64,000 bases of DNA from Sphingosinicella sp. (GTDB lineage Bacteria > Pseudomonadota > Alphaproteobacteria > Sphingomonadales > Sphingomonadaceae). The stretch covers positions 1 to 64,000 of the forward strand of contig NZ_JACESP010000013.1 in assembly GCF_013911755.1 (NCBI RefSeq), in the 5' to 3' direction. Below the pieces are notes generated by a model. It saw nothing but the letters and a program-made list of their open reading frames with translations. It had not been told where the DNA came from and made no database searches. A program made the position numbers and the translations under genes. Below are positions 3,688-17,408 of this stretch, piece after piece (the stretch's first letter is position 1; every line of letters starts with the position of its first letter).

Positions 3688-6180
3688 GTGAAGCGTTCGC
3701 TCTTGCTGGGTGCCGCGTGCTGCGCCCTCGCCGCCCCCGCTTTCGCCCAGGACGTCCAGACCGCTGCTGTCGAGGACGATCTCAGCGCCAACGAAATCGT
3801 CATCACGGCCACGCGCCGCGCGGAGACCGTGCAGGACGTGCCGATCGCCGTCACCGCGATCAGCGGCGATCTCATCAACAACGCCGGTGTCACCGACATC
3901 CGCGGCTTCGAGCAGCTGAGCTCAAGCCTTGAGGTCTTCACCGGCCAGTCCGCCGCGACCGGAACGTCGCTTTCCATTCGCGGCATCGGCACCGCAGGTG
4001 ACAATCCCGGCTTCGAGCCTGCTGTCGGCGTGTTCATCGACGGCGTCTACCGTGCGCGTGCCGGACTTGCGCTTGCGGAGCTTCCGCCGATCGAGCGCGT
4101 GGAAGTGATGCGCGGCCCGCAGGGTACGCTGTTCGGCCGCAACACATCGGCGGGGGCGCTCAGCATCATCACCGAAAGCCCGTCGTTTGATCTCGGCGGC
4201 TATGCCGAGGTGAGCTACGGCAATTACGATGCGATCTCGCTGAAGGGCGGCGTCACCGGCGGCGTCACGGACACGTTGGCGCTGCGCCTCGACGGCGTTT
4301 ACCGCGAGCGTGACGGCTACATCCACGACGTGAATTCGGGTCGCAGCATCAACAATCTCGATCGGTACACGCTGCGGGGGCAAGCGCTGGTCGAGAAGGA
4401 AGACCTGAAGATCCGCTTCATTGCCGACTATTCGAAGACCGACGAGCAGTGCTGCGGCGCCGTGAACGTCGTCGAGGGCCCGACGGCCCCGGCCATTCAG
4501 CTCGGTGCTTCGCTCGCCGGCCTCACCGGTATCTACACGGGCAAACCTTCCGAGCGCCGCATGGCGGCGACGCCGGGCCGCAGCTATGGCGAAGCGGTCG
4601 AGGAATGGGGTGTTTCCGCCGAAGTCACCTATGACTTCGAAGCGGTTACGCTGACCTCGATCACGGCGTGGCGCAATTGGGACGTGCGCCGCAACCAGGA
4701 CATCGACTTCTCCGGTTTCGACCGCGCCTATCGCGAGGGCTACGCGCCGGGGCTGCGCGACTTTACGCAGGAAATCCGCCTGCAGGGTTCGGCGCTCGGC
4801 GATCGTCTCGACTGGCTGGTGGGCGGCTTCTACCTCAATGAGAAGCTGACGCTGACCGACCGCGTACGCTTCGGCACGCAAGCGAATTTCTACAGCGATG
4901 CGCTGTTCGCGCCGAGCGGCTTTGAGCTGTTCGATACGTTCGGTCCCGCCGTTCCGGAATTTGGACAGGTGCTGATGGCCCTGAACCCGGCGCTTGCGGC
5001 AGCCGCCGCCGGTGACCCTGCCCTTTTCGCGCTGTTGAACTCCCCGCTCCCGGGCGGCAGCGAAGGCGACGGACAGATCAATGATCACTACCGCGTGAAA
5101 ACGGAAGCGCTTGCCCTGTTCACGCACAACGTCTTCGAGATCACCGACAATCTGAAAGCGACGCTCGGCCTGCGCTGGAACCACGAGAAGAAGACGATCA
5201 ACGCGAACCTCAACGCGGTTTCGCCGACGTGCGACTTCTATCTCGATCCCTCGACGGCGATCCTGACGGGTGCGCTCGCAGCAATGGCCCCGGACGCCAT
5301 TCTGCTGACCTGCAACCCGACGACGAACCCCGAGTTCAACGGGCTCTACAGCGGCAGCCGCAGCGAGAACGAGTTCACCGGTACGGCGAAGCTCGCCTAT
5401 ACGGTGACGCCCGACTTCATGCTCTACGGCGGCTACGATCGCGGCTACAAATCGGGCGGCTACAACCTCGATCGCGGCGGCTTCGACTCCGTCATCCTCG
5501 GCGGCGACGGCGGGCAGATCGAGGATCTGGAGTTCGACAGCGAAAAGGTCGATTCGTGGGAAGTCGGCTTCAAGTCGCAGTGGGGCCGCGCGTTCACGCT
5601 GAACGTCGCCGCCTTCTATCAGGATTTCTCGAACTACCAGCAGTTGGTGTTTTCGGGGAACAGCTTCGTCACGATGAACGTCGACAAGACGGTGTCGAAG
5701 GGCGTGGAGGCGGAAAGCACCATCCGTCCGGCGCGTGATCTCACCTTCCAGCTCGGGTACAGCCTCGTCGACGCGCGGATCAAGGACGGCAGCAATCTCG
5801 TCGGCACCCCGCTCCAGTTCGAGGCCGGCAAGCAAATGTCGCAGATCCCGCGCCACACAGTCACAGGCGCGGCAACCTGGATGCCGCCGCTCAGCGATAC
5901 GCTGAACGCGCTCGTCCACGCCGACTTCCGCTTCCAGAGCGAGCAGGTGACAAGTTCGCAGAGCCGCGGCATCGCCGACAACGAAGGCTTCGCCGTCGTC
6001 AACGCGCGCATCGGGGTTGGATCCGCAGACGACAAGTGGCGGCTTGAGGTCTTCGTCGAGAACCTGTTCGACAAATACTACCACATCGCCACGTTCGCCG
6101 TGCCGGAACAGCCGGGCACGATCGCGGCCTATCCGGCACTGCCGCGCTTCTACGGCGTGTCAGCCCGCATCGGCTTCTAA
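3688..6180 (+). CDS. TonB-dependent outer-membrane receptor
   Basis: An 830-residue outer-membrane receptor for active uptake driven by TonB-ExbBD. The GTG start at 3688 has an AGGAG ribosome site and opens a signal peptide ending near AFAQ. The TonB-box region (NEIVITATRRAETVQDVPIA) lies at about residues 35-55, followed by a plug with VEVMRGPQGTLFGRNTSAGA, then a 22-strand barrel ending in the aromatic GVSARIGF. It matches the sphingomonad receptors often tied to plant, aromatic or glycan substrates. No hydrolase is directly linked, so the substrate is unknown. A strong terminator follows. CtrA-like sites upstream hint at cell-cycle-linked expression. Confidence 0.93.
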   Translation: MKRSLLLGAACCALAAPAFAQDVQTAAVEDDLSANEIVITATRRAETVQDVPIAVTAISGDLINNAGVTDIRGFEQLSSSLEVFTGQSAATGTSLSIRGIGTAGDNPGFEPAVGVFIDGVYRARAGLALAELPPIERVEVMRGPQGTLFGRNTSAGALSIITESPSFDLGGYAEVSYGNYDAISLKGGVTGGVTDTLALRLDGVYRERDGYIHDVNSGRSINNLDRYTLRGQALVEKEDLKIRFIADYSKTDEQCCGAVNVVEGPTAPAIQLGASLAGLTGIYTGKPSERRMAATPGRSYGEAVEEWGVSAEVTYDFEAVTLTSITAWRNWDVRRNQDIDFSGFDRAYREGYAPGLRDFTQEIRLQGSALGDRLDWLVGGFYLNEKLTLTDRVRFGTQANFYSDALFAPSGFELFDTFGPAVPEFGQVLMALNPALAAAAAGDPALFALLNSPLPGGSEGDGQINDHYRVKTEALALFTHNVFEITDNLKATLGLRWNHEKKTINANLNAVSPTCDFYLDPSTAILTGALAAMAPDAILLTCNPTTNPEFNGLYSGSRSENEFTGTAKLAYTVTPDFMLYGGYDRGYKSGGYNLDRGGFDSVILGGDGGQIEDLEFDSEKVDSWEVGFKSQWGRAFTLNVAAFYQDFSNYQQLVFSGNSFVTMNVDKTVSKGVEAESTIRPARDLTFQLGYSLVDARIKDGSNLVGTPLQFEAGKQMSQIPRHTVTGAATWMPPLSDTLNALVHADFRFQSEQVTSSQSRGIADNEGFAVVNARIGVGSADDKWRLEVFVENLFDKYYHIATFAVPEQPGTIAAYPALPRFYGVSARIGF

Positions 6181-6184
6181 AAAG

Positions 6185-6219
6185 AAGGGGCGGCCCCAGG
6201 GGTCTCCGGGCCGCCCCTT
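6185..6219 (+). terminator. Rho-independent-type hairpin after the TBDR
   Basis: Perfect arms AAGGGGCGGCCC and GGGCCGCCCCTT enclose an 11-nt loop just after the stop. The T-tract is short on the plus strand. On the minus strand A/T follows (TTCTTT), so it may serve the convergent UrcA gene as well. Confidence 0.75.
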
Positions 6220-6234
6220 CCTCCGCTCGGCACA

Positions 6235-6573
6235 CTAATGGGCGGTGCCGGTAAGCATGGGGTCCGCGCGCGCAAGACTGCGCGAGCCTGAAATCACCGC
6301 GTCGACGTGCGCCTCGGCCGTCACCGACGTGTTCCGGATGCACGCGCGGCGAACCATTTCCATCGTGATGTCGGCGCTCGGCCGTGTGCCGCAAGCCGTG
6401 AGAACCGCGCCCGACACGCGCTCGCGCAGGGCGCGCTCTCCCGCGAGCGTGGTAAGATCGAGATCGGCGAGGCTGACTGCGACCGAAACCGGCTCGGCGC
6501 GCGAGGACGCGCTGAGGAGACCGACCGTTGTCGCCACCGCAAGCGCGATCGCCGTGCTTCTGACGTAAAACAT
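6235..6573 (-). CDS. UrcA family protein
   Basis: A 112-residue exported protein. It has a signal peptide (hydrophobic residues about 8-25, cleavage near SRAEP), then the UrcA pattern VSLADLDLTTLAGERALRER and two cysteines (LTACGTRP, RRACIRN) that probably form a disulfide. UrcA proteins are small periplasmic proteins common in sphingomonads; their role is not established. The gene is convergent with the TBDR and stands alone. Confidence 0.8.
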   Translation of the reverse strand: MFYVRSTAIALAVATTVGLLSASSRAEPVSVAVSLADLDLTTLAGERALRERVSGAVLTACGTRPSADITMEMVRRACIRNTSVTAEAHVDAVISGSRSLARADPMLTGTAH

Positions 6574-8866: not shown

Positions 8867-10297
8867 GTGGCAGGGAGCATTTTCGGGCGCCGCAAGGGCC
8901 TTGGCGACTGGCGGAGCTATTCCGGGAACCGCGCGCTCAGGCGCACGCTTACCTGGCCTCATCTCGTTGCGCTTGGTGTCGGCGCAATCGTCGGCACGGG
9001 TATCTACACGCTGATCGGCATTGGCGCGGGCAAGGCAGGCCCCGCGGTGATCGCCTCGTTCGCGATCGCCGGGCTCGTGTGCGCCTGTGCCGCCCTCGCC
9101 TATGCGGAACTTGCAACTATGATGCCCGCCGCTGGGAGCGCCTACAGCTATTCCTACGTTGCCCTGAACGAACCTGTGGCGTGGATGGTCGGCTGGAGCC
9201 TCGTGCTCGAATACACCGTGGTCTGCGCGGCAGTTGCGGTGGGCTGGTCCGGCTATGCCGTCGGCTTCCTCAACAGTTGGGGCCTTACCATCCCGCATGA
9301 ATTTGCAGCTGGACCGCACGCAGGCGGCATCATCAATGTGCCGGCGGTTCTCATCACCATGTTGGTCGCTGGTCTGCTCGCGCTCGGAACGCGGGAAAGC
9401 GCCTTCGTCAACACACTGCTCGTGCTGCTCAAGATGTCGGCGCTGGCGCTCTTCATCTTTCTTGCCCTGCCCGCCTTTGACCCAGCCAACCTCCAGCCCT
9501 TCGCCCCGTACGGGTGGGGCTCGAAGGAAGTGGGGGGCAACACGGTCGGCGTGATGGCGGGCGCGGCGTTGATCTTCTTTGCCTTCTACGGGTTCGACGC
9601 GGTCTCGACCGCCGCCGAGGAGGCGAAGGACCCATCGCGCGATCTCACGATTGGCATCATCGGCTCCATGCTGATCTGCACGGTCGTCTATATGGCAGTC
9701 GCAGCAGCGGCGATCGGCGCCATGCCGGTCGAGGAGTTTGCTGCGAGCGGCGAGCCGCTCGCGCACGTCCTCCGCTCGCTCGACTGGCCGGGTGCCGCGC
9801 AGCTGATCGGCGCAGGCGCGATCGTTGCGATGCCGACCGTGCTGCTCGCGTTCATGTATGGTCAGAGCCGCATCTTCTTCGCCATTGCGCGCGACGGCCT
9901 GCTCCCCGAACGGCTGTCGCACGTTAACGCCCGCACCGGCACGCCGATCCTGATGACCATGGTCACTGCCCTCGTCGTCAGCATCATCGCCGGGCTGCTG
10001 CCTCTTGGCGAGATCGCCGAGCTGGCCAACACGGGAACGCTCGCCGCGTTCATTGCCATCGGTGTCAGCCTCATCGTGCTGCGCCGCCGCGCGCCGGATG
10101 CGGAGCGGAAGTTCCGCGTTCCCTTTCACGTGCCGGTGGCGATGGCCGCAATCGGCGGCTGCCTCTATCTGTTCGTCAGCCTGCCCGAAAAGACGCAGCT
10201 TCGCTTCCTTGTCTGGAACCTGATTGGCGCGGCGGTCTATCTTGCTTATGGGATGCGGCAGAGCCTGCTCGCCGCTGCCAGCCGGAAGGAAGCCTGA
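8867..10297 (+). CDS. APC-family amino acid permease (cationic amino acid transporter-like)
   Basis: A 476-residue inner-membrane transporter with about 12 helices. The GTG at 8867 starts a short cytoplasmic N-terminus, then the APC signature LVALGVGAIVGTGIYTLIGI of helix 1 and YAELATMMPAAGSAYSYSY. Unlike eukaryotic CATs it lacks the extra C-terminal helices. It likely imports or exchanges amino acids with the proton-motive force; the substrate is unknown. Its stop overlaps the next start by one base (TGATG), so the downstream effector-domain protein is translationally coupled. Confidence 0.9.
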   Translation: MAGSIFGRRKGLGDWRSYSGNRALRRTLTWPHLVALGVGAIVGTGIYTLIGIGAGKAGPAVIASFAIAGLVCACAALAYAELATMMPAAGSAYSYSYVALNEPVAWMVGWSLVLEYTVVCAAVAVGWSGYAVGFLNSWGLTIPHEFAAGPHAGGIINVPAVLITMLVAGLLALGTRESAFVNTLLVLLKMSALALFIFLALPAFDPANLQPFAPYGWGSKEVGGNTVGVMAGAALIFFAFYGFDAVSTAAEEAKDPSRDLTIGIIGSMLICTVVYMAVAAAAIGAMPVEEFAASGEPLAHVLRSLDWPGAAQLIGAGAIVAMPTVLLAFMYGQSRIFFAIARDGLLPERLSHVNARTGTPILMTMVTALVVSIIAGLLPLGEIAELANTGTLAAFIAIGVSLIVLRRRAPDAERKFRVPFHVPVAMAAIGGCLYLFVSLPEKTQLRFLVWNLIGAAVYLAYGMRQSLLAAASRKEA

Positions 10298-12587: not shown

Positions 12588-13995
12588 GCGGAAGGCCGTC
12601 GCGGGGCCGGGGCATGGGGAACATGGCGAAATCGGGCTTGTACCCCTCCAGCAGCACGATGCGGCGCTTGTCCAGCAGCTCGAACAGGAAGGCCTTCGCC
12701 TGCATGTAGGCGAAGTGGAGGCCAAGACACATATGGCCGCCGCCGCCGAAGGGCACCCAGGCGTATTTGTGCCGGCCCTTTGAATTTTCAGGCGAGAAGC
12801 GCGCGGGATCGAACCGGTCCGGCTCCGGCCAGAGATCGGGGAGACGGTGCGTCATCATCGGGTTGACGCCGATGTGCGTGCCCGCCGGAATCGCATAGTT
12901 CCCGAACGTGAAATCCTTGAGCGCGCGGCGCGGCAGCGCGGGCACGGGCGCGTTCAGCCGCATCGCCTCCTTGAAGGCCCACTCGGTCTTTTCGAAGCGG
13001 TCCAGCTCTGCATACGGAATCCGGTCCCCGAAATCGGCGCGCACGCCGCGCACCTCGGCGCGCAGCTCCTCCTGCCACTGCGGCGAAGCGCCCAGATAAT
13101 AGACAGTGGAGGTGAGCGAGGAGGTGAGCGTGTCGTGCGCGGCCATCATCAGGAAATTCATGTGATCGATGATTTCCTGATCGGTGAGCAGGCGCGTCTG
13201 CCCGGTCGCCTCGTCCTCATGCTCCGCATTGCAGATCTGCGTGAAGATATCGTCCCCCGCCGCGCCGCGGCGCTTCGGGATTTCCCGCCCGAAGAAGGCG
13301 CACATGAAGGCGCGGCCCTTCACGCCGCGCGCCATCGCGGTGAAGGGCAAGGGCTTCCGCACGATGCCGATGGACGCGGCGACCATATCGACGAAGCTGG
13401 TGTTGATGCGATCCGCCTCCGGCCCCCAGGGGATGCCGAGGAACGATGTGGCGGCGAGATCGAGCGTGAGCTGCTTGATCGCGGGATAGAATTTCACATC
13501 CTGCGGCCACTTGGCGACGCGCGCGGCGATGCCTTCCTGCAGCGCGCCCAGATAATTCTGCATCGGCGCGGGCTTGAAGGCGACCGACAGCGTTTTGCGG
13601 TGAACGCGGTGCTCCTCGAAATCCATGAGCATCACGCCGCGCGGGAACACACGATCGAGGATGGGATTCCAGCCCTGCTCCGACGAGAAGGTCTTGTCCC
13701 GATCCATGAAGACAAGCTCGTTCGCCTCCGGCCCGATCAGCGTGACCTGCCAGCCGCCGCCGATGTTGGGCGTGCGGTAAACGCGCCCGTAGCGATCCAC
13801 CTGATCGCGCACCAGGGTGAGCGGGTCTTTCAGAAAGCGCAGCGTGCGCAGAACCCCGCCGAGCCGCGAGCCCGGCATTTCCCCCGGCAGATGCGCAAGA
13901 TCGGCATAGCCCGTATCGCGAAGCCGCGCGAAACGCTCCGCCGGCGTCGAGCCGTCGTCGGTGCGGAACTCCTGCGGATGAACCGGCGCGTTCAT
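12568..13995 (-). CDS. Cytochrome P450
   Basis: A 475-residue soluble haem monooxygenase. The I-helix motif AAHDT is at 285-289, ExxR at E343-R346 (EAMR), and the haem loop FGGGGHMCLG at 417-425 with the axial ligand C423. The second glycine of the usual FGxG is kept. No fused reductase is present and no ferredoxin/reductase pair is next to it, so electrons come from elsewhere. The ATG at 13995 is preceded by GGGAGGG. The substrate is unknown. The length is slightly above the ~400-420 residues of CYP101-type enzymes. Confidence 0.93.
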   Translation of the reverse strand: MNAPVHPQEFRTDDGSTPAERFARLRDTGYADLAHLPGEMPGSRLGGVLRTLRFLKDPLTLVRDQVDRYGRVYRTPNIGGGWQVTLIGPEANELVFMDRDKTFSSEQGWNPILDRVFPRGVMLMDFEEHRVHRKTLSVAFKPAPMQNYLGALQEGIAARVAKWPQDVKFYPAIKQLTLDLAATSFLGIPWGPEADRINTSFVDMVAASIGIVRKPLPFTAMARGVKGRAFMCAFFGREIPKRRGAAGDDIFTQICNAEHEDEATGQTRLLTDQEIIDHMNFLMMAAHDTLTSSLTSTVYYLGASPQWQEELRAEVRGVRADFGDRIPYAELDRFEKTEWAFKEAMRLNAPVPALPRRALKDFTFGNYAIPAGTHIGVNPMMTHRLPDLWPEPDRFDPARFSPENSKGRHKYAWVPFGGGGHMCLGLHFAYMQAKAFLFELLDKRRIVLLEGYKPDFAMFPMPRPRDGLPLRLERL

Positions 13996-14220
13996 GGACA
14001 ACCCTCCCACCAAAGCCCGCATTCGGGCCGATCGTGTGCGGCGGGCACCCCTCCCACAGCGCACCCGCACGCACACAGCATCCGGCCGCGCGACTCTCCC
14101 TTCGCGCGCAAAATGCGGAGTGAGGATACGCAAAAGTGAGCTGAACGCAAATCTAATTTACACTGGGGTAAGTGGGGGTGGAGTGGTAGCCGAGGAGGAG
14201 GTTTTCGACCGCGACAACAA
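13996..14220. other. Non-coding stretch upstream of the P450
   Basis: No gene is supported here. It should carry the P450 promoter on the minus strand. An A/T-rich patch near 14150-14160 is the only candidate core promoter region. Confidence 0.3.
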
Positions 14221-14271
14221 CACGGTGGGCACGAAGCGCCGTGAATAATCCACGGTTGCGAGCCCCGCAAC
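14221..14271 (-). other. Structured 3' flank of the reverse transcriptase gene
   Basis: Three short perfect stems are packed in 51 bases: CACGG (14221-14225) or CACGG (14251-14255) can each pair with CCGTG (14239-14243), so two hairpins exclude each other. GTTGCG-AGCCC-CGCAAC (14255-14271) forms the third. There is no T-run, so a simple terminator is unlikely. It could be a 3' RNA element or a processing site; unproven. Confidence 0.35.
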
Positions 14272-14297
14272 TGACACTCCCCACCGCTCCTATCGTC

Positions 14298-15578
14298 CTA
14301 AGAGGGACGCCGCGTCGTATTTCTCGATTTATCTGCAAGAAGAACTTCCGCATCCACTCCTAGAAATTGCAAATCCATCGAAGATAGCCTCTGCAACCGG
14401 TCAACACCTAAGAGATCACGTAGGATGCTTGCTTGCGCTGCAACTGACGCCCGTTCAATTGCTTTGCGGAGATCATCGCGATTTTGCGCGGCCGAATAGG
14501 CATTTAAATACCCTTCAATAACCGACTTAAAATAGCCACCCATCGTCGTCAGAGTAACCCTCTTCTCAAGCAGGGCTGCGATGCTATTCCAACTTCCGAT
14601 CCTACTAGAAATCGTGGCAATATTGGAGGGTGCAACTCGTAGCTGATACGGGCCATGCCCTCGTCTACTCAGTTCCATACCTAAGAATGTGGCAGGTGTG
14701 TCAGGATTATAGATAACCGTCTTTGAGTCCGAGCTGCCGGGTTCGCCGATGGATAATCCAAGATGCCCTAAGGCGGATTTCAAGAAAGTATGAAAAGCGT
14801 GCGCTTCGGCCTCGGATGAGAAGAACGCCACTATGTCATCTACATAACGGGCAACGGGAACACCTCGCCTTGCCAATTGGCGATCTAGGTTCCTCAAATA
14901 CACTCCAGCATAGAAGGGAGAAAGCGGCATCCCCTGTCTGACCCCGAGCCCCCTCCGGATACCCGCCTCGGAAACGATCGAACGCCAACCTCTCTCCGTT
15001 CCATCTTCGATTTCGGTGGCGAGGAACGAATGCAAGATTGGAACGAGAGACGGCTGTCGCACGGTATTCGAGACAGCATCACTCAACTTCGTTCTTTCCA
15101 GATTGTCGAAGAACTTGTGGATGTCCGCTTTATAAACCCAAGGGTATTCGTTTCGCGCTTTGCAGGCGAACTTACGGGCCCCCAACACACTCCTCTCAGA
15201 ACCCGGCGCCAATCCGAAGGCTACTGGATTGTCCATTCCCATAGCCAATAGTCGGGGGCGAAGTTGGTTGAGAATGCTGAACTGAAGAAGCCTGTCTGCT
15301 ATGGTGGGAACGCAGATAATGCGATTGCCGCTACCGTTCTCTTTCGGCTTGGCGAATGCTAGCAGGCCGTGTGGTTTAAACCCTGAAGTCACTCTAAAGC
15401 GCAGTTCGCGAAGCTGTCGGTCAAGCGCCCGCTCAAAGACCACTCCCGATATCCTGTCGGGACCAAAACACGAATTTATCAGGCGAGCGCGCTCAGTCTT
15501 CCATACCGCCTTAAGTGCAGCGATTGAAGTACAGGCCTCAAGTCCATTCACTAGTTTCCGCCGCCCCCCCCAAGTCAT
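14298..15578 (-). CDS. Reverse transcriptase (orphan, group II-like/UG-type, without maturase or endonuclease domain)
   Basis: A 426-residue RNA-directed DNA polymerase. Motifs in order: NRIICVPTIADRLLQ (85-99), motif A KADIHKFFDNL with D152, motif B RQGMPLSPFYAGVYL with Q215-G216, motif C ARYVDDIV with D247-D248, then FLGMEL (298-303). The 120-residue helical C-terminus matches no domain I know; no X/maturase zinc or HNH motif is visible. Motif B is QGxxxSP, unlike the SQ form of diversity-generating RTs, and the retron VTG signature was not seen. The ATG overlaps the upstream small ORF (ATGA). A run of eight G lies at codons 3-5, and a GTG at 15551 could serve as alternative start. The gene is visibly A/T-richer than its neighbours, which suggests transfer. 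It could be a defence RT (DRT/UG class); this is inference. Confidence 0.9.
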   Translation of the reverse strand: MTWGGRRKLVNGLEACTSIAALKAVWKTERARLINSCFGPDRISGVVFERALDRQLRELRFRVTSGFKPHGLLAFAKPKENGSGNRIICVPTIADRLLQFSILNQLRPRLLAMGMDNPVAFGLAPGSERSVLGARKFACKARNEYPWVYKADIHKFFDNLERTKLSDAVSNTVRQPSLVPILHSFLATEIEDGTERGWRSIVSEAGIRRGLGVRQGMPLSPFYAGVYLRNLDRQLARRGVPVARYVDDIVAFFSSEAEAHAFHTFLKSALGHLGLSIGEPGSSDSKTVIYNPDTPATFLGMELSRRGHGPYQLRVAPSNIATISSRIGSWNSIAALLEKRVTLTTMGGYFKSVIEGYLNAYSAAQNRDDLRKAIERASVAAQASILRDLLGVDRLQRLSSMDLQFLGVDAEVLLADKSRNTTRRPS

Positions 15579-15913
15579 CGTGGCCGGCGGTATATTAGGA
15601 GCCGATCCATCCCATTCGGGTGGCCAGCTTTCGCCATGGTGACGAGGGCAGTGCCGCCCGCCTTAACGACGATCCGTGCACCGATCTCAACACTGGCCGT
15701 CACCGACATCACACCGGAGACTGCGCCATAGGCTATACCAACAAAGCACGCCCAAGCAAGTACGGCTCGGAACAAACCGTGAACGGCGTTCCTGGCGCGC
15801 TCAATTGTGCGCGGCGCGGCGGTCGCATTGCTCGCCATACGGTGCCGCCGCCCGGTTCCCGCCTCCCGAAGAATGTCCGATGCCCTACCGGAGCTTTGGA
15901 TGACACAAGGCAT
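15575..15913 (-). CDS. Small single-span membrane protein coupled to the reverse transcriptase
   Basis: A 112-residue ORF. The ATG at 15913 has GGAG seven bases upstream. Residues about 48-70 form one hydrophobic segment (GLFRAVLAWACFVGIAYGAV). The C-terminal 30 residues (VEIGARIVVKAGGTALVTMA and on) are encoded by copy 1 of the 94-bp repeat. Its stop overlaps the RT start as ATGA, so both are co-translated. The frame stays open upstream to 16087, through copy 2 of the repeat. No family was recognised. It may be an RT partner or may simply lie within a structured RNA template. Confidence 0.55.
   Translation of the reverse strand: MPCVIQSSGRASDILREAGTGRRHRMASNATAAPRTIERARNAVHGLFRAVLAWACFVGIAYGAVSGVMSVTASVEIGARIVVKAGGTALVTMAKAGHPNGMDRLLIYRRPR
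15598..15691 (-). repeat. 94-bp direct repeat, copy 1 (inside the small ORF)
   Basis: It matches copy 2 at 92 of 94 positions with no gap. The mismatches are A at 15642 (C in copy 2) and T at 15677 (G in copy 2) on the plus strand. In the coding frame one change is silent and one is Val/Gly. Confidence 0.95.
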
Positions 15914-15936
15914 TTGCTCAACTCCTTTTCCATCAC

Positions 15937-16030
15937 GGAGCCGATCCATCCCATTCGGGTGGCCAGCTTTCGCCATGGTGCCGAGGGCAGTGCCGCCCGC
16001 CTTAACGACGATCCGGGCACCGATCTCAAC
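15937..16030 (-). repeat. 94-bp direct repeat, copy 2 (upstream of the small ORF)
   Basis: It lies exactly 339 bp from copy 1, a multiple of three. It ends 23 bp before the small ORF start, so it is non-coding if that start is right. The same frame is open through it. Confidence 0.95.
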
Positions 16031-16259
16031 TGGAGATAGCAACAACAATCTTCGGTCGCGGGGCCCCGACGGGGTCCGCTGCCACAATCAATATATCCAC
16101 GATAACAGTCCGCGGAAAGCAACTTGTTTTCCACAAACTCAATGACTTCGGTGAAGCAGTTTCTTTCCTATACTTCACTCCGCATGGGTACCGGCTTTCA
16201 CCGGTAAGACGCAGGGAAGATTCGCAACAGTGTGGCGGCGCGCGTGCTTTCGCGCCCCC
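16031..16259. other. Leader side of the RT island, with hairpins
   Basis: No gene is supported. A strong hairpin lies at 16058-16079 (GCGG/CCGC and CCCC/GGGG arms around GAC), a perfect inverted repeat TACCGG-N6-CCGGTA at 16189-16206, and GGCGCG-N8-CGCGCC at 16237-16256 just after the dipeptidase stop, possibly its weak terminator. A/T-rich DNA at 16085-16180 could hold the RT operon promoter. Confidence 0.4.
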
Positions 16260-17408
16260 TCACCCCGCCCAAACCTCGCGGAACAGCCGGTCGAAATTCC
16301 CGCCGATCACCTTTTCGATGACGCGCGCCGGGTACTTCGCGCGGTCCATTTCGGCGGCGATGATTTCCATGCGGCGGGCGCTGTTGAGATCGGGGACCGC
16401 AACCGGGCCATCGGCCTCTCCCGGTGCGCCGATGCCCGCCTTCTGCCGCGCCTCTGCCGTCTTGCGGACGATCTCCATATAGGCGGGGGAGATGTCGACG
16501 GGGGTGATGCTCTGGTCGCTGCCGATGCCGACGTGATCCTCTCCGCACAGGCGGATCGCGTGGGTGAGGTGCTTCATGAAGAGCGCGCGCGAGGGCGAGA
16601 CGGGATCGCGGCCGAGGAAGGGCATCAGGTAAATGCCGACGACGCCGCCGGTGTTCGACACGGCGCGGAGCGCGGCGTCGGGCTGGTTGCGCTGGCTATC
16701 ATAGACGGCGCGCGCGCCGGTGTGCGAGCAGGTGATCGGCTTCGATGAGGCCGCGGCGGCGTCCAGCACCGTTTGCGGCGTGGCGTGGCCGGTATCGACG
16801 AGGATGCCGAGGCTGTTCATGCGTGCCACCGCCTCCCGCCCAAGCGGGGTGAGGCCTTCGCCATCGGGCAGAGAGCTGCCGGCGCCGAGTGCGTTGCGAT
16901 CATTGTAGGTGAGCTGCATGATCTTCACCCACAGGCCGCCGAACGTTTCGATGAGGCTCAAATCCTCGCCGATCATCCCCATGCCCTGAAAGCCGAAGAT
17001 GATGCCGAGCTTGCCCTGCGCCTTCGCGGCGGCGAGGTCCGCATGGCGCTTCACGAGCAGGAAATGATCGGGGTGCGCCTCGATATGGCGCAGCCACTTC
17101 GCGATTTCCTTCACCGTGCCCTCGAAACCGCCGGGCTTGCCCACGGTGAGGTTGACCGCGGTGATGCCCGAAGCGCGGACGTTCGCGAGCTTTTCGGGCG
17201 TGAGCTCGCCGGGGGGCGGATACGGCACGTTCCACGTATCGGGCGAGGCGAGCGCATCGATGACGATCGCCTTCCGGTAAAGCGCGGCCACCGACGCCGG
17301 GATCGCGTCGGTGGTTGCGGCGATGGCGGGGGCGGCGAGCGCGGTGAGGCCGAGGCCCGCCGCGCCGGCTGCGAACGCGCGGCGGCTGATCTCGCTGGAT
17401 CCGGTCAT
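16260..17408 (-). CDS. Membrane dipeptidase-like protein (peptidase M19), Tat-exported, atypical metal site
   Basis: A 382-residue homologue of renal dipeptidase, a dinuclear zinc enzyme that cleaves dipeptides and some D-residue dipeptides. The N-terminus SRRAFAAG plus a hydrophobic stretch is a twin-arginine signal. Family landmarks are present: LVDTGHATPQT, ITCSHTGARAV, DHVGIGSDQS. The usual DGHxD metal motif is replaced by DALAS at 51-55, so both the His and Asp ligands are missing. Catalysis may be altered or use one metal. It is third in an operon with M14 and M20 peptidases, 15 bp after the M20 gene. Confidence 0.87.
   Translation of the reverse strand: MTGSSEISRRAFAAGAAGLGLTALAAPAIAATTDAIPASVAALYRKAIVIDALASPDTWNVPYPPPGELTPEKLANVRASGITAVNLTVGKPGGFEGTVKEIAKWLRHIEAHPDHFLLVKRHADLAAAKAQGKLGIIFGFQGMGMIGEDLSLIETFGGLWVKIMQLTYNDRNALGAGSSLPDGEGLTPLGREAVARMNSLGILVDTGHATPQTVLDAAAASSKPITCSHTGARAVYDSQRNQPDAALRAVSNTGGVVGIYLMPFLGRDPVSPSRALFMKHLTHAIRLCGEDHVGIGSDQSITPVDISPAYMEIVRKTAEARQKAGIGAPGEADGPVAVPDLNSARRMEIIAAEMDRAKYPARVIEKVIGGNFDRLFREVWAG

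Follow-up and report, generated by a model that had tools for sequence, protein, structure and literature searches.

A reverse transcriptase preceded by an in-frame pair of long direct repeats, and a possible route from RNA to a repetitive membrane-protein gene

Introduction

What does a reverse transcriptase (RT) make when its gene is preceded by a small membrane-protein open reading frame (ORF) and a long direct repeat? The question is raised by a locus in Sphingosinicella sp. (assembly GCF_013911755.1, contig NZ_JACESP010000013.1), of which we analysed positions 1 to 64,000 of the forward strand. This stretch of 64,000 nt is the window, and coordinates given without a locus name are positions in it, with (-) for the reverse strand. 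A preliminary description, made from the letters of the window alone, had noted an RT with its catalytic motifs and no intron-type maturase or endonuclease domain, a 94-bp direct repeat, an upstream 112-residue single-span ORF and a GC content lower than that of the neighbours, and had proposed an undescribed RT system with an RNA template at about 15579-16206. These observations are confirmed below, and the proposal is supported by the recurrence of the repeat pair with its spacer and by conservation of both at the nucleotide level. The repeat-flanked RT system is real and recurrent, and may be a hitherto unrecognised relative of bacterial immune systems in which genes are built from RNA.

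Results and discussion

The repeat pair recurs upstream of related RTs

The RT ORF is listed at 14298-15578(-), with 426 amino acids and RVT_1 as its sole Pfam match above the cut-off (E 2.5e-21). GC over the RT is about 0.51-0.53, and on both sides mostly 0.64-0.70. Upstream of it lie the two repeat copies, R1 (94 nt) at 15937-16030(-) and R2 at 15598-15691(-), separated by a spacer S of 245 nt at 15692-15936(-). S codes most of a small hydrophobic protein, and R2, which differs from R1 at 2 of 94 sites (98% identity), codes its C-terminal tail. The copies start 339 nt apart, or 113 codons, and a search of the 48-contig, 3.63-Mb host genome with a repeat copy gave matches at the R1 and R2 positions only.

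Loci gathered by homologue searches carry L labels such as L006, and for 13 loci, the window included, we read the side upstream of the RT. A direct-repeat pair stands directly upstream of the RT in 11 of the 13, exactly one pair in each. Because the same layout recurs this often, we take it to be beyond chance, and its presence in relatives excludes an origin of the repeat within a single genome. With L004/L008 and L009/L011 each counted once, the 11 repeat-bearing loci represent nine distinct lineages. Their anatomy is common to all: R1, a spacer for a small hydrophobic protein, R2, a short gap and the RT. R is 94-150 nt long, 95-100% identical within a locus (0-5 differing sites) and more GC-rich than the RT gene in 9/9 lineages. 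The preliminary description would have been undercut by homologues without a conserved neighbour; most keep both the ORF and the repeat, and 2 of the 13 loci do not.

Between lineages the repeats are far less alike. The window, L006 and L014 share a recognisably common R, and R is strongly diverged among the others. For L009 and L010, amino-acid identity is 24% in R1, 14% in R2 and 39% in the spacer, and the RTs are 63% identical over the 80% aligned by tblastn. (RT identity values from the frame comparison were not used for L009-L010, L009-L011 and L004-L030, owing to interrupted L010 and L011 RT frames and a wrong L030 start.) Copies that are alike within loci, with R diverged between them, read as the result of concerted evolution or of strong pressure for sameness.

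A side observation concerns the type of the R1-R2 differences. All ten in the core of the repeats (from the window, L004, L014, L015 and L030) are transversions, as are 16 of the 18 over the whole aligned repeats by our count, which is unlike ordinary drift. The RT frame is interrupted in L010 (A. soli) and L011 (A. baumannii), and the repeat pair there is still 97-100% identical.

The repeat period is locked to the reading frame

The start-to-start periods of the nine lineages are 339, 342, 342, 399, 378, 387, 381, 375 and 453 nt, which makes eight distinct lengths, all of them multiples of three. If only six deep lineages are counted as independent (window/L006/L014; L004; L009/L010; L015; L028; L030), the chance of this is (1/3)^6, about 0.0014 by our own arithmetic. 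When the unit R+S (15692-16030(-) in the window) is closed into a circle, its sense frame has no stops in any of the nine lineages; the antisense frame is open in two. Shuffled sequences kept an open sense frame at rates of 0.0035 for L004, 0.001 for L009, 0/2000 for L010, 0.006 for L028 and 0.001 for L030. For the four GC-rich members the shuffle P is 0.14-0.46, so the open frame is unremarkable there. With a period that is a multiple of three and a stop-free R+S, tandem copying would yield an endless reading frame.

The main rival is that R1-S-R2 is an ordinary gene, with two copies of a domain around a membrane span that are kept alike by gene conversion, and that the RT uses some other template. 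We consider this unlikely. Such a gene could account for a frame without stops from R1 across S to R2 in 9/9 lineages, so the informative portion is that ahead of the spacer's own start. In eight of the nine spacers a Shine-Dalgarno-like motif and a start codon (ATG, but GTG in L006 and L014) follow R1, after 7-33 in-frame codons without a stop. In the window the motif is AGGAG, directly after R1 at 15922-15926(-) (coordinates by hand), and the ORF that follows, 112 residues with a single span, is at 15575-15913(-). Six of the nine loci do have some in-frame ATG, GTG or TTG upstream of R1 (ATG in L006 and L010), as an ordinary gene would need. L004 and L009 have none there; inside their R1 are TTG or ATG codons with no listed Shine-Dalgarno motif, and L004 has a GTG with GGAG at the extreme end of R1. 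L015 is the clearest case: the frame meets a stop one codon upstream of R1, and the first ATG, GTG or TTG lies only past R1. Its R1 is frame-locked all the same, and this frame would be of no use unless reading went round the R+S repeat or began at an unusual start. An ordinary gene also sits badly with synonymous sites that are constrained (next section) while the amino acids of R diverge as widely as between L009 and L010.

Repeat and spacer are constrained as nucleotides

The best-resolved pair is L006-L014. The proportion of synonymous differences (pS) is 0.105 in R1+S vs 0.639 in the RT, where the lowest window of equal length has 0.473, and the proportion of nonsynonymous differences (pN) is 0.055 vs 0.077. 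For the window and L006, pS is 0.475 vs 0.863 and pN 0.303 vs 0.369; for L004-L008, pS is 0.010 vs 0.217 and pN 0.003 vs 0.019. An exchanged cassette would depress pN and pS alike, so a swap misfits both L006-L014 and window-L006, and we rejected it as the cause of the low pS in L006-L014, where pN falls far less than pS. In 40-nt windows, the identity of L006 and L014 is 80-100% from about 50 nt upstream of R1 as far as the start of the RT; across the RT gene it is 60-93%, and beyond 90 nt upstream it is 28-55%. Conservation between L004 and L008 starts about 110 nt upstream of R1. Third-position GC falls from R to S to RT in L004 (0.57, 0.42, 0.22) and L009 (0.41, 0.37, 0.17). From these comparisons, R+S in the best-resolved pair looks like RNA besides coding for protein.

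The gap between R2 and the RT depends on where the RT starts. In the window the listed ORF begins at ATG 15578, and the true start is probably GTG 15551 (V10), because the alignment of the relatives begins there and residues 1-9 have a predicted local distance difference test (pLDDT) score below 50 in the structure model. The RT would then be 14298-15551(-), and the resulting R2-RT gap of 46 nt is in line with gaps of 47-57 nt in the other eight lineages. The ATGA overlap between the small ORF and the RT that had been described is therefore present as letters, but the coupling read into it is probably an artefact in the window. A stop-start overlap is seen in L004 and L015, is longer in L028 and is not found in L006, L009 or L010.

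In eight of the nine lineages the gap holds a perfect stem of 6-9 bp, whose sequence differs between lineages. The candidate in the window is a hairpin at 15558-15590(-), between R2 and the likely RT start, with the 6-bp stem CCGCCG/CGGCGG (coordinates by hand). With the RT starts of the window and L028 shifted to the likely ones, the stems exceed those of shuffled sequences in length (pooled P 1.5e-4 for the six deep lineages), and with all nine lineages pooled 0 of 20,000 draws matched the stem lengths observed. For R itself, folding and structure alignment brought out no strong common fold, and the structured 5' side of the RT in the preliminary description is not convincing on these grounds. 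The folding of the L009 spacer stands out (z -5.9).

Repeats that are 95-100% identical and a few hundred bases apart are in general good substrates for recombination. They might therefore serve as a switch at the DNA level, with RecA-type recombination at R1 and R2 deleting or amplifying the spacer and the RT kept for another reason. L005 and L029, which have the RT and no pair, could be read as products of such a switch. We find it quite improbable, since all 11 repeat-bearing loci have exactly one pair and a switch would work without a frame-locked period and without synonymous constraint.

The spacer protein

The best 19-residue Kyte-Doolittle window is 1.39-2.68 across the nine spacers, and -0.7 to 0.94 in R. 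In the window it reaches 1.86, at a predicted transmembrane stretch of 15707-15763(-) (coordinates by hand). The spacer protein is thus probably membrane-spanning, as judged by hydropathy. Eight spacer proteins had no Pfam match above the cut-off, SLATT not being among the matches listed, and in PADLOC the same eight gave no listed SLATT and one weak match, to PbeD (E 0.03).

A proposed mechanism

Starting from the anatomy, its recurrence, the frame-locking, the nucleotide-level constraint and the grouping of the RTs (below), we infer the following. R1-S-R2 would be transcribed as one RNA that serves as template for the adjacent RT. When synthesis reaches R1, the new complementary DNA (cDNA) would re-anneal to the identical R2, of the same or another molecule, and another round would begin. 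The R region in retroviral strand transfer provides a comparable realignment. The product would be a tandem (R+S)n DNA that carries an uninterrupted frame of repeated membrane-spanning units, and its expression would give a toxic or membrane-damaging product whose likely role is anti-phage defence. We hold this tandem-cDNA, endless-ORF mechanism as the best fit to the data, tentatively; the role in phage defence is plausible.

A number of observations weigh against it. L005 and L029 lack the repeat pair, ordinary gene conversion could account for the identity of the copies, and the in-frame starts upstream of R1 in six of the nine loci would allow an ordinary long ORF. L030 is a poor member in three respects: its spacer has the weakest hydrophobic stretch (1.39) and no Shine-Dalgarno motif and start ahead of that stretch, and no perfect stem longer than 4 bp precedes its RT. 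Between L004 and L008 pN drops as well, and there RNA constraint and recent exchange are not separable. The single-locus folding energy of the R2-RT gap is unremarkable except in the window-L006-L014 trio, that of R is mostly so (R1 z -3.0 to +0.5), and in the structure alignment of the trio 57 of 180 pairs are inconsistent and 13 compensatory. No new promoter would be made, unlike in DRT2, because both R-S junctions are already in the genome. The neighbours in the window look metabolic (by eye; no scan of the neighbours for defence genes was made).

Comparison with DRT2 and DRT10

Two defence-associated reverse transcriptase (DRT) systems are close in logic. In the parts of the DRT2 study that we draw on, template units are divisible by three and leave one stop-free frame across repeats, antisense to the non-coding RNA (ncRNA); short ACA motifs bound the unit of 111-129 nt, and a promoter is rebuilt only in tandem copies (PMC12039810). 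Our family likewise has an RT with an adjacent RNA-like unit that is divisible by three and stop-free in all nine lineages, in the sense frame. Here, however, the unit is 339-453 nt, is read in sense, codes a hydrophobic span and has its repeat of 94-150 nt written in the genome. Nor is the RT a member of the DRT2 family by its Drt2 scores: the NCBIfam Drt2 model gives 32.5 for the window RT against a cut-off of 390, and PADLOC Drt2 gives 31 bits for the window, 52 for L030, 55 for L009 and 37 for L006.

DRT10, in the portion of its description that bears on this, uses an A-B-A' template with realignment, in the order ncRNA, SLATT gene, UG17 RT; A is 2-4 nt there, and the Eco3 repeat is 9 nt (PMC12632851). 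We propose the realignment step at R by analogy with this A-B-A' arrangement. The family would share the template logic, and it has a membrane protein between the putative RNA and the RT. It differs in its long A-B-A' layout, against 2-4 nt for A in DRT10, and in having no SLATT match listed for the eight spacer proteins where DRT10 has a SLATT partner.

One could also read the locus as retron- or DRT10-like in full, with R1 or the upstream leader as the ncRNA, the small membrane protein as a separate effector like SLATT, and R2 incidental. The gene order described for DRT10 fits this, and so does RT_UG17 as the top UG/DRT class for the four RTs tabulated. But R2 is hardly incidental when the pair is near-identical in 9/9 lineages, and neither Pfam nor PADLOC lists SLATT for the eight spacer proteins, so we regard this reading as rather unlikely. 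Rfam gave no retron match in the window at 13900-16500, where the msr-msd fold was not specifically searched for.

Our best reading, by analogy, would place the proposed tandem-cDNA system conceptually between DRT2, with its endless ORF, and DRT10, with its A-B-A' template. Somewhat doubtfully, we suggest that it might be a distinct class of gene assembly, in which an RT with long, genome-encoded terminal repeats like the R of retroviruses concatenates a membrane-protein cassette and the endless gene exists only after reverse transcription. The sections of a 2026 overview of DRT1-9 that we consulted mention no product involving long direct repeats around a coding unit, and give no mechanism for DRT1, 5 and 8 (PMC13213688). 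By titles and the beginnings of abstracts among the matches listed, the R1-S-R2-RT architecture is not described in the open-licence PubMed Central literature. As far as these searches reach, the RT system is undescribed.

The RTs form a group of their own

D152, Y245, D247 and D248 are invariant across the family alignments, and the V of YVDD (245-248) varies to A. A tree of 33 RTs unites the family, with L049, L005 and L029 among its members, in a single group of 12 (96/86). Five group II references and L002 stand apart from it (97/91), 13 RTs that we labelled as diversity-generating retroelement (DGR) group together without it (99/93), and the UG17 reference and L056, both long-branched, are placed immediately outside it (95/89 for the set). 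The window RT thus belongs to a group distinct from the references for group II introns, DGRs and UG17/DRT10; with so few references, the tree does not fix the family's exact sister. L056 itself, an RT on a 181-kb viral contig, has a very long branch and lies between the UG17 reference and the family.

Among the UG/DRT classes, RT_UG17 gives the highest score for the window (95 bits), L006 (112), L009 (122) and L030 (152). We nevertheless rejected membership in UG17, as a UG17 locus (L047) scores 439 bits and the UG17 reference lies outside the family in the tree.

Group II intron and G2L4 RTs are the nearest in fold. The structure model of the RT (mean pLDDT 80.8, from a three-row alignment; the other four models are much poorer) has GsI-IIC RT, with its template-switching complex at the top rank, and G2L4 RT as the nearest solved folds at a TM-score of about 0.6, with DRT9, DRT2 and DGR RTs ranked below. 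Among NCBIfam models, group_II_RT_mat matches the window RT best. Its score is below the cut-off, however (128 bits vs 300), as is that of retron_St85 (33.6 vs 235). Placement in group II with a domain V nearby had been named beforehand as evidence that would count against a new system; Rfam finds no group II intron RNA at 13900-16500 of the window at E<=1, or in seven relatives at the gathering score, and the RT falls outside the small group II set in the tree. We therefore rejected a group II intron remnant.

DGRs deserve a control of their own, as they too have an RT beside a repeat pair of about 100-125 nt. In a DGR, a gene carries one of the two copies at its 3' end. If the locus retrohomed in this way, R1 would act as the template repeat, and the variable repeat, at the 3' end of the small membrane gene, would be R2. 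The geometry fits, with R2 coding the C-terminus and the RT next door, and R does differ strongly between lineages. We compared 12 DGR pairs of at least 80% identity from the same searches as the family. Not all of these are independent, as L019, L022 and L026 resemble near-copies of one another, with lengths and spacings that are alike (L019 and L022 are nearly identical in the tree; L001, L002 and L020 have other pairs, L033 has none and L021 was left out). In all 12, almost every difference falls on an A in one of the copies. Taken modulo three, the spacing is 0 in 4 pairs, 1 in 5 and 2 in 3, so it is not frame-locked. The ten core R1-R2 differences of our family have no A bias (two, in L014, are at the repeat edge), its spacing is frame-locked and its RT is outside the 13-member DGR group. 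We rejected DGR identity on the difference spectrum and spacing, and consider DGR-like retrohoming very improbable here.

Relatives, rarity and genomic setting

The closest RT relative found is L006, 51% identical and from another genus of the same family. L014 is from the same order, and L028 and L029 from the same class. L004, L008, L009, L010 and L011 are Acinetobacter records in the plasmid collection, although those of L009 and L011 are chromosome-sized at 3.7 and 4.0 Mb. L005 is an Acetobacter plasmid, and L015, L030 and L049 are IMG/VR contigs. Three other plasmid records with a family RT (H55, H57, H60) are outside the comparison, and L049/L031 stops at a contig edge upstream of the RT. 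The system is rare, with matches at the thresholds used in 2/298 genomes of the family, 3/396 of the order, 3/385 of the class and 1/398 of the phylum, each count including the window's own genome. A scan of genome contigs gave two distant matches only, and a viral scan found no match with L009 as query and only itself with L015.

Members are found on plasmids and viral contigs, and L006 and L014 lie less than 1 kb from tRNA genes. Nearby ORFs in L070 are integrase-like and resolvase-like (recognised by eye), and the A. soli copy has a DarT-like gene and a type I restriction system about 2-7 kb away. The neighbours of the G860 copy look metabolic by eye. The flanks of the window locus (dipeptidase-like and P450-like by eye) have matches in 6 and 5 of six genomes of the genus, its own included, and are adjacent in none of the others; the dipeptidase match in G004 is weak, and no clean empty site was definable among the six.

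Three side observations concern single loci. In L072 (G001), of the same genus as the window, the 3' end of the dipeptidase-like gene is duplicated (1833-1982 and 9154-9253; 100 nt, 96%), with the copy about 7 kb downstream, as if at an integration hotspot. Near the A. baumannii copy, a C4 antisense RNA of P4 type at L009 1159-1243 suggests a P4-like satellite as carrier. In L005, a perfect tandem repeat in the ORF after the Acetobacter RT (6041-6356) encodes an extended run of one short peptide.

Significance

For annotation, we suggest looking for an in-frame pair of direct repeats upstream of RTs that are not assigned to a class. If the proposed mechanism is true, a hidden repetitive gene made from RNA, as in DRT2, would exist in a second RT lineage and be reached by another route. 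The realignment repeat would be written into the genome itself, which would link the endless ORF of DRT2 to the telomerase-like repeat addition of DRT10, in a cassette whose repeat length, spacer and frame would be separately testable.

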